Source of the DNA: Burkholderiales bacterium
GTDB lineage: Bacteria > Vulcanimicrobiota > Xenobia > Xenobiales > Xenobiaceae
NCBI GenBank assembly: GCA_012799975.1
Contig: JAAZKF010000108.1
Location: 1 to 35,378, forward strand
Length of the DNA stretch: 35,378 bases
Direction of reading: 5' to 3'
Part shown: one piece after another, positions 32,371 to 35,378 of the stretch
Layout of the letters: each line of letters starts with the position of its first letter
How positions within the stretch are numbered: the first letter of the stretch is position 1
Notes under the pieces: model-generated
The model's input: only the letters and a program-made list of their open reading frames with translations
The model's database searches: none
What the model was told of the DNA's origin: nothing
Position numbers and translations under genes: made by a program

Positions 32371-34968
32371 TCAGCACTCCGAGTGTCCGCAGGAGTAGCA
32401 GGTGGTGCAGCCTTCGGTGAAGACGAAGCTGGTGTTGCCGCACTCCGGGCACAGGTCGACGAAGGCTTCCAGGCCCAACGAGTCCCGGGTCTCACCCAGC
32501 AGTTCCTGGCGGTAGGCGGGAGTGGCCACGTCCAGCTCCTCTTCGGCACCCAGATAGTTCTCTTCCAGGGCCTGCGACAGGGCGTCCGGCAACGAGCGCA
32601 CGCGGGTCTTGCCGAATCCGGTCGAACGCGGTCCCCCGATACCGCCCAGTTGTTTGACGATTTCCTGGACGCGCTCCTTGGGACTCAGGGGAGAACTCAC
32701 CCTCAGGACCAGAGAGGCCAGGCGACCCAGGGCTTCGGCCATGGCCTTGATGTCACTGCCACCCTTGCCGATCTCGATGAAGAGTTCGAAGGGGCGCCCG
32801 TCCTCGTCATCGTTCATCACGATGTGGGCAGTGCCGGCGGGAGTCGCCTTGGAAACCGTAACGCCACGCCTTTTGTAAGGGCGGGGACGTACCTTGGGCT
32901 TGGAAGTTTCCGCTGGCTTGGGGGCCTCCTGGACGTGCAGGACCTGTTCGTCGCGGGACTTGTCGCGATAGATCGTCCCTCCCTTGCAGCCCAGGCGGTA
33001 CATCAGCTCATACAGTTCGCGGGTCTGCTCGATGGTGTAGTTGGAAGGGACGTTACAGGTCTTGGATATCGCCGAGTCCACCCAGCGCTGCGTGGCGGCC
33101 TGGACTCGGACGTGTTCTTCCGGGGTCAGGTCCATGGCGTTGACGAAGTAGTCCGGAAGGGGCTGACCGGGATGAGCCTGCTGGAACTCCTCGACCACGC
33201 TGACCTTCTCCTCATGGACTCCCAGGCGGCTCTTGCGCAGGTAGGACCAGAAGTAGAAGGGTTCGATGCCGGTTGAGGTGCCGACCATGGTGCCCACGGT
33301 CCCGGTCGGGGCCTGGGTCAGCAAGGTGACGTTGCGCAGGCCCTGTTCGGCAACCTTCTGGCGGACCGACTCGGGCATGCGCTGCATGAACCCGCTTTGC
33401 AGCAGTTTCTCGGCGTTGAAGCGGGGGAATTTCCCCTTCTCGACAGCCAGATCGCTGGAGGCTTCGTAGGCCTGGGTGGCGATGAACTCGTACAGTCTCT
33501 CGATGAAGGCCACCGATTCGGAAGAACCGTAACGTATCCCCAGACGGATCAGCATCTCGGCCAGGCCGATGGTGCCCAGGCCCACGCGGCGTTCATCCTT
33601 CTGTTGGCGAGCATTCTGCTCGAAGAAGTAGGGCGTGGCATCGATCACGTTGTCCAGGAACCGTACCGCGTAGCGTACCGTTTGTCCCAGGGTGTCCCAG
33701 TCGACTTCGCCCTTGTGGACCATTCGCGACAGGTTCACGTGTCCCAGGTTGCACACCGCCCAGGCCGGCAGGGGCTGTTCGCCACAGGGGTTGGTGCAGA
33801 CCAGTCGGCCTTCGGGATAGTACCACGAATTGGCTTCCTTGTTGCATCGGTCCACGAACCAGATTCCCGGTTCGGCGGATGCCCAGGCGCTTTCGATGAT
33901 GCCGTTCCAGATCTCGCGGGCTTTGACCGTCTTGTGGGTAACCACCGTGCCCCCCATGGTCTGCCAGGCTTCCATGTCTCCGTTCCAGTGCTCGGCATAC
34001 CGGATGTCGGTGGTGTCGGGGAAGACCAGGTCCCAGTCCAGGTCTTCCTCCACGGCTTGCATGAAGCGGTCGGTGATGCCTACGGAGATGTTGGCGTTGG
34101 AGATCTTGCCAGCTTCCCTCTTCGAGCGGATGAACTCCAGGATATCCGGGTGCCAGACGTTCAGGATCAACATGAGGGCGCCCCGGCGCGATCCCCCTTG
34201 TTCGATGAGTCCGGTCACGAAGCTGAAAAGACCGCCCCAGGAGACCGAGCCGGAGGAACGTCCGTTCACTCCGCGGACGTAAGCGTAGCGCGGCCGCAGG
34301 GTGGACAGGTTGATGCCTACTCCGCCTCCCCGGCTCATGATCTCCGCCATCTGCGAGAGGGTCTCGATGATGCCGTCGCGGGAGTCTCCCGGACTGGGGA
34401 CCACGTAGCAGTTGTAGAAGGTCAGGTTCTGGTCGGTGCCGCAGGCCGTCAGGATTCGCCCACCCGGCACGAACTTCCACGAGTCCAGGAGCCAGCGGAA
34501 GTTCTCTGACCACTTCTGACGTTCAGGAGTGCTGGTCTCGACGGCGGCGGCCCCCCGGGCGGCCCGGTCCATCATCTGCTCGACCGTCAACTCGACGGGT
34601 TTGTCCACGTGTTCGAGGGGAAGCTCCAGCGTGGTCCCATCGCGTAGGACGACCTGCACGTTCCCCTCGTTGAAGGCCAGTGCGGTTCCGATCTCGCGCT
34701 GACCCGTGGCCGAGTCGACCAAGGCTACCACCAGGTCGTTGGTTTGAAGCGTGCTTTTCGATCCGTCCTTCAGGGCGTAGCGATCCAGGAAAATCTTCTC
34801 GCCCAGGGGCGAGAGGGTGTTGTTGCCCAGCAGTGGGAGTCGGTCCAGGATGCTCCCGTTTGACGGCTTATGCACGAAAGTTGCCCTCCGATCTGTTTCG
34901 GATCCGACCGTTTCGGGACCGGGCGAGAGGTTCGCCGGACGAGGATCGGACTTGAAAAATTTTGCCAT
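32371..34968 (-). CDS. nrdJ: Vitamin B12-dependent (class II) ribonucleoside-diphosphate reductase
   Basis: LSPLGEKIFLDRYALKD, FVPGGRILTACGTDQNLTFYNCYV, NPCGEQPLP, TCNVPSNYTIE, C-terminal Cys-rich tail CPECGNTSF...CTTCYSCGHSEC. Confidence 0.97.
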   Translation of the reverse strand: MAKFFKSDPRPANLSPGPETVGSETDRRATFVHKPSNGSILDRLPLLGNNTLSPLGEKIFLDRYALKDGSKSTLQTNDLVVALVDSATGQREIGTALAFNEGNVQVVLRDGTTLELPLEHVDKPVELTVEQMMDRAARGAAAVETSTPERQKWSENFRWLLDSWKFVPGGRILTACGTDQNLTFYNCYVVPSPGDSRDGIIETLSQMAEIMSRGGGVGINLSTLRPRYAYVRGVNGRSSGSVSWGGLFSFVTGLIEQGGSRRGALMLILNVWHPDILEFIRSKREAGKISNANISVGITDRFMQAVEEDLDWDLVFPDTTDIRYAEHWNGDMEAWQTMGGTVVTHKTVKAREIWNGIIESAWASAEPGIWFVDRCNKEANSWYYPEGRLVCTNPCGEQPLPAWAVCNLGHVNLSRMVHKGEVDWDTLGQTVRYAVRFLDNVIDATPYFFEQNARQQKDERRVGLGTIGLAEMLIRLGIRYGSSESVAFIERLYEFIATQAYEASSDLAVEKGKFPRFNAEKLLQSGFMQRMPESVRQKVAEQGLRNVTLLTQAPTGTVGTMVGTSTGIEPFYFWSYLRKSRLGVHEEKVSVVEEFQQAHPGQPLPDYFVNAMDLTPEEHVRVQAATQRWVDSAISKTCNVPSNYTIEQTRELYELMYRLGCKGGTIYRDKSRDEQVLHVQEAPKPAETSKPKVRPRPYKRRGVTVSKATPAGTAHIVMNDDEDGRPFELFIEIGKGGSDIKAMAEALGRLASLVLRVSSPLSPKERVQEIVKQLGGIGGPRSTGFGKTRVRSLPDALSQALEENYLGAEEELDVATPAYRQELLGETRDSLGLEAFVDLCPECGNTSFVFTEGCTTCYSCGHSEC

Positions 34969-34994
34969 CAGGAGGGCCTGATGTCAACCCTTTA

Positions 34995-35041
34995 GCCCAA
35001 GATCTTGTGTTTATTTTTATTTTGGTCCCGAGATGTTGTGG
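34995..35041 (-). promoter_or_regulatory. Two tandem NrdR-like boxes upstream of nrdJ
   Basis: cccaagatcttgtgtt (34996-35011) and cccgagatgttgtggt (35027-35042) share 13/16 bases with exactly 31-bp spacing. Confidence 0.6.
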
Positions 35042-35050
35042 TTATCCACA
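35042..35050 (+). promoter_or_regulatory. Consensus DnaA box TTATCCACA
   Basis: Perfect 9-mer match; weaker 7/9 matches at 35107-35115, 35122-35130 (minus strand) and 35134-35142. Confidence 0.5.
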
Positions 35051-35272
35051 GCGCCATCCCGAGGCGATCCGGGACCGATTCCCGGTTTGCTGAGGGGTTG
35101 CAGCAGGTTTCCACAGGGGCCTGTGGATGTTTTTCAACCACAGGGTCGGCGGAGGCCCCCCGGAGCTCGTGGGCCACTGGTAATCCACTCTTCGGTCTCG
35201 TAGCAGGCTGGCCTCGGCAGGGGATCCCGAAGGACCCGTCAAAAATGATGGAGTGTCAAGATCTGAGGGCAG

Positions 35273-35378
35273 GCCTGAATCCGCCGCTTGGCGTGAGAAC
35301 CGAGGCCATCGAGGCGGGTCTGGATGCCAGGAAGGCGTGCATCGAGGAGCGGAGCGTAGTTGGAAACTACGTGAGCAC
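35273..35378 (-). repeat. Right copy of the ~106 bp dispersed repeat (inverted), truncated by the window end
   Basis: Reverse complement of 87-192 with 2 mismatches. Confidence 0.95.

Follow-up and report, generated by a model that had tools for sequence, protein, structure and literature searches.

The nrdJ gene and its control region

The window (the whole stretch of 35,378 nucleotides analysed here, contig C336 of a 3.65-Mb assembly in 452 contigs, G000) carries on its minus strand an open reading frame, called at 32371–34968, whose product matches TIGR02504 (NrdJ_Z) with 594 bits for a cut-off of 400, which places it in the class II ribonucleotide reductase (RNR) family. This nrdJ is 95% identical to its counterpart in UBP9 bacterium UBA6111 (L002) and 93% identical to that of L009; more distant relatives show 70–77% identity, some of them under record titles that read Candidatus Eremiobacterota. 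We refer to the group as Xenobia-like, as we take it to be the class Xenobia of the Eremiobacterota (UBP9). The elements recognized at the locus, from the gene outwards, are the following:

32371–34875, minus strand: nrdJ, adenosylcobalamin-dependent (class II) ribonucleotide reductase, 834 aa from the GTG
34873–34889, minus strand: Shine-Dalgarno sequence GGAGGG and probable GTG start (GTG at 34873–34875), conserved
34959–34964, minus strand: candidate −10 element CAAAAT, 17 bp after the −35 element
34982–34987, minus strand: −35 element TTGACA of the nrdJ promoter
34995–35010, minus strand: NrdR box 2 (proximal), ACACAAGATCTTGGGC
35011–35025, minus strand: A/T-rich spacer between the NrdR boxes, 15 bp
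35026–35041, minus strand: NrdR box 1 (distal), CCACAACATCTCGGGA, with counterparts in order-level relatives
35037–35045, minus strand: weak DnaA-like 9-mer ATAACCACA overlapping NrdR box 1, two mismatches to the consensus, in the register of the sister-genus DnaA-like box
35042–35050, plus strand: perfect DnaA box TTATCCACA abutting NrdR box 1, identical in both congeners
35107–35128, both strands: inverted pair of weak DnaA-like 9-mers, GTTTCCACA (plus) and ACATCCACA (minus), forming the palindrome CCACAGGCCCCTGTGG, near-invariant in three congeners

Translation of nrdJ probably starts at the GTG codon at 34875, since in L009 an in-frame TGA interrupts the 31 codons upstream of this GTG and since GGAGGG and the closely following GTG are kept in all three congeners. 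The ATG at 34968 was discarded as a start because the L009 stop lies in frame downstream of it. With translation starting at the GTG, TTGACA and CAAAAT become readable as a candidate nrdJ promoter, on the grounds of spacing and conservation: the former is invariant among congeners and the latter reads CAGAAT in them. In the g5 genomes of the sister genus, TTGACT occupies the corresponding −35 place, with a TA...T hexamer 18 bp further on. A cobalamin riboswitch-type RNA element was also considered upstream of nrdJ and rejected, as neither it nor any other RNA element gave an Rfam match at E ≤ 1 across 34300–35378.

nrdJ appears to be the only RNR gene of the cell: it was the sole class I/II RNR match in the assembly searched, which is incomplete, and a search of the genus for class III NrdD found none (with the same incompleteness of assembly).

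Note that a short interspersed repeat (about 105–140 bp) lies at both ends of the contig, at 87–192 and 35273–35378. The assembly has at least 40 copies of it, many of them at contig ends, and copies were found in all three congeners searched. In the adjacent segment, 35150–35272, most of the tail of the gene that precedes nrdJ in L002 and L009 has been lost or replaced, a candidate rearrangement or assembly join near the repeat.

Paired NrdR boxes upstream of nrdJ

A preliminary description of this DNA had pointed to two 16-bp motifs 31 bp apart upstream of nrdJ; both are present, separated by a 15-bp spacer. Its estimate of about 12 matches out of 16 to the NrdR consensus (acaCwAtATaTwGtg, PMC4009431) is correct for box 2, box 1 matching at 10 of the 16 positions. 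Scored against the published core, C-w-A-.-A-T-.-T-w-G (8 positions), boxes 1 and 2 reach 7/8 and 8/8, respectively. The distance of 31 bp between the box centres corresponds to an integral number of helix turns, and the spacer length falls within the range of 14–17 bp at which NrdR binds best, both boxes being required (PMC12051234). Among the three congeners, the first 12 bases of box 1 are identical and the core of box 2 is conserved, while the sequence of the spacer diverges, its A-richness excepted. The box starts are 31–33 bp apart in relatives.

The pair is not a chance occurrence, as judged from pattern searches, from which all genome-wide counts given here derive. A pattern built from the boxes (CACAABMTVTNGN{21,23}CWABMTVTNG) had exactly one match each in the window's assembly and in the congeners G001 and G002, always at nrdJ, and a reversed-pattern control had none in 11 genomes. 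The literature core, which is independent of these data, gave two NrdR pairs in 353 kb (two long contigs of relatives, one pair each), both again at nrdJ. Matches in G008:C18 and G014:C179 were set aside as chance-like, lying in or beside unrelated coding sequence. Most of those in the CPR1 genome (G009) were also rejected, being copies of an interspersed repeat. The latter element, found in about two dozen copies (L105, L112–L127), has inverted arms (CTAGAAGTCCGGCCG...CGGCCGGACTTCTAG) and contains an NrdR-pair-like stretch (CACAAGATATTGTAGG...CACAATATGTTG), probably by coincidence; the same genome has an NrdR-pair-like site upstream of mraZ (L128, G009:C437:961–1004).

The gene downstream of the pair encodes an RNR, and the genome also encodes the regulator, on whose presence the earlier proposal depended: nrdR was found in the assembly, and its product has a CPxC zinc ribbon and an ATP-cone. 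The expectation that the paired boxes would recur in orthologous promoters was likewise borne out, as 10 of the 11 readable nrdJ promoters of the order carry the NrdR pair (the genomes compared are related, and such counts do not represent independent events). It is also present at nrdJ in G017, which belongs to the same class. G004, a family member that also has a class III RNR, has neither NrdR nor DnaA sites at nrdJ (L046). At the nrdR loci themselves, DnaA boxes are not conserved: a perfect box was found in G008 only, and another lies 866 bp before the match in G004.

DnaA boxes beside the NrdR pair

The perfect DnaA box said to abut the distal motif does adjoin NrdR box 1 and is the only perfect one in the nrdJ promoter of the window. 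It is unchanged in three species, with diverging sequence on its upstream side, and TTATCCACA occurs just six times in the 3.65-Mb assembly. At the level of the order, 9 of the 11 readable nrdJ promoters have DnaA boxes that are perfect or differ by one base, in keeping with the conservation anticipated for these 9-mers. Shuffle statistics were computed on 10 of these promoters: they contain 8 perfect boxes, where shuffling gave a mean of 0.022, and 17 boxes when one mismatch is allowed, where it gave 0.97; none of 500 shuffles reached either count. At least one consensus DnaA 9-mer is, in other words, both conserved and enriched. In a scan of nrdJ promoters at the phylum level that took the orientation of the loci into account, DnaA boxes were absent or rare in the NrdR-paired promoters of other phyla, none of which has a perfect box. 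Within the order, CPR1 has the NrdR pair at nrdJ without DnaA boxes.

TTATCCACA is likely the group's own DnaA site, because the dnaA promoters of most genomes of the order carry it, often paired. dnaA was not found in the fragmented assembly of the window; it was found in the congeners G001 and G002, and DnaA has an intact DHTTV signature in G002, G008 and G009. In four genomes of the genus, nrdJ and dnaA are among the loci whose perfect boxes are common to species; the others are the beginning of a MerR-like gene, the stretch separating holB from a PSP1-like gene, and two more sequences. At the start of the MerR-like regulator gene (L131, L132 and L151, near position 1500; in G003, G000 and G002), the conserved TTATCCACA is accompanied by several DnaA-like 9-mers and an inverted repeat.

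The DnaA and NrdR sites are arranged in several ways among relatives. In the window's genus, the perfect box abuts box 1 in an orientation opposite to that seen in the sister genus (G008, G011, G012 and G013), where a DnaA-like box shares 5 bp with the distal NrdR box (for example TTATCCACAATCTGTAGTGG of G012). The overlapping box is perfect in G011 and G012 and has one mismatch in G008 and G013. Some overlap is intrinsic, CCACA belonging to both motifs. The g5 genomes have other DnaA boxes 36–80 bp upstream of box 1. Tandem DnaA-like boxes also occur upstream of box 1, 2 bp apart in G011 (TGTGGATAA-GG-TGTGGAAAA) and 3 bp apart in G017 (TTACCCACA-GAG-TTGTCCACA); E. coli DnaA prefers such a tandem double box, with a gap of 2–3 bp (PMC11317965), and none is found in the window or its congeners.

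Possible joint control of nrdJ by NrdR and DnaA

The arrangement is, in our judgement, probably best explained by a class II nrdJ promoter that receives two inputs, from NrdR and from DnaA, and the joint control put forward in the preliminary description is supported as a reading of the sequence. We also infer that nrdJ may be controlled in a replication-coupled manner. Predicted from sites that are present, conserved and enriched in a genome that encodes nrdR, binding and its sign would be as follows. A dATP-loaded NrdR tetramer would sit on both boxes, immediately before the −35 element, and repress nrdJ when dNTPs are plentiful; DnaA would occupy the perfect box beside box 1 together with the weak boxes upstream, and would adjust transcription to the replication-initiation state in the manner of E. 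coli nrdAB. Competition between the two proteins for the site is probable, since the DnaA box abuts NrdR box 1 in the window and overlaps it by 5 bp in four sister-genus genomes, and a dNTP surplus could then override the DnaA signal. Whether competition would go as far as mutual exclusion on overlapping DNA, making a direct switch that joins dNTP level and initiation state at the only RNR, is a more speculative extension, which we propose tentatively and with some doubt.

The order of sites is that of the E. coli and Salmonella nrdAB promoters (class Ia), i.e. distal DnaA boxes, two NrdR boxes about 31–32 bp apart, and the gene (PMC8203912, PMC2892513). Scanned in the same way and numbered from the ATG, E. 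coli nrdAB showed its DnaA boxes at −162 and −150, followed by NrdR boxes at −125 and −93, which agrees with the literature. In that system low DnaA-ATP or DnaA-ADP activates, whereas high DnaA-ATP represses (PMC8203912). The window differs in that its enzyme is of class II and comes from a distant phylum, in that it has no tandem double DnaA box, and in the position of the DnaA box: about 17 bp separate the end of the E. coli pair from box 1, whereas the Xenobia-like box abuts or overlaps it.

In P. aeruginosa and Streptomyces, class II nrdJ is an established target of NrdR: nrdJ of Pseudomonas aeruginosa and Streptomyces coelicolor has, like that of the window, two upstream NrdR boxes in a genome with nrdR (PMC4409342), but a DnaA input is unreported in that paper and the related literature examined. 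S. pneumoniae nrdHEF shares with the window a −35 and a −10 element that are both downstream of box 2; its NrdR spacers, however, are 24–26 bp long, compared to 15 bp here (PMC12051234). Outside class Ia, DnaA has been seen, as a ChIP-seq peak, at the E. coli nrdDG promoter (PMC11317965), although this is a class III system, whose regulators include FNR (PMC2892513). In the open literature, which covers part of the field, no account of DnaA at the promoter of a class II nrdJ came to light. DnaA coupling of dNTP synthesis to replication is documented mainly for E. coli class Ia nrdAB, and here its order of sites recurs on a class II gene of a distant phylum whose members are mostly uncultured. 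Provided that the sites function, such an arrangement either evolved on more than one occasion or has a greater age than supposed. The overlap of the DnaA and NrdR boxes provides a simple, testable competition model.

The DnaA-like 9-mers could instead be by-products of the shared CCACA half-site, or inconsequential sites, with NrdR acting alone. Indeed, the NrdR boxes of the group begin CCACAA and have five bases in common with the DnaA box, CPR1 retains its NrdR pair with no DnaA boxes, and in E. coli only 13 of 32 perfect single DnaA boxes are bound (PMC11317965). We nevertheless regard this as improbable: the DnaA box of the window sits outside NrdR box 1 and has stayed identical in three species despite the divergence of the sequence upstream, the g5 genomes have additional boxes well upstream of box 1, and perfect boxes are in large excess over the shuffled expectation. 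A further proposal, that the boxes are a datA/DARS-like locus for titration or timing, or belong to a replication origin adjoining nrdJ by chance, draws on a 153-kb contig of G013 in which the nrdJ locus is the densest cluster of DnaA boxes. It seems to us very improbable, as the GC skew of G013 passes from plus to minus near nrdJ (G013:C3, about 50–80 kb; L174–L175), as at a replication terminus, that of G002 (200 kb) does not switch at nrdJ in the way expected of an origin, dnaA is located on other contigs, where it has paired boxes of its own, and the window has a single perfect box. An origin at nrdJ was rejected on the basis of GC skew and of the location of dnaA.

Within the reading that involves both NrdR and DnaA, the inverted pair at 35107–35128 is the weakest part, each arm having two mismatches to the DnaA consensus. 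Three weaker DnaA-like 9-mers had been described upstream of the perfect box: the palindromic pair (palindrome ccacaggggcctgtgg at 35111–35126) stood up to the comparison, being near-invariant in the genus, but the third 9-mer (tcaaccaca, about 35136–35144) is not conserved in the two congeners. Such a near-perfect and near-invariant palindrome, which in L002 and L009 comes directly after the upstream gene's stop codon, might also be the operator of a different regulator or the terminator of that gene instead of two weak DnaA boxes. We hold this to be unlikely. The palindrome is not followed by a T-tract, and in G010 its arms are found again with more distance between them (ACATCCACA...TGTGGAAAA), one of them as a one-mismatch DnaA box; this wider gap suggests two independent 9-mers rather than one operator. 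In the g5 genomes, a one-mismatch DnaA box, TTTTCCACA, is found at a similar place.
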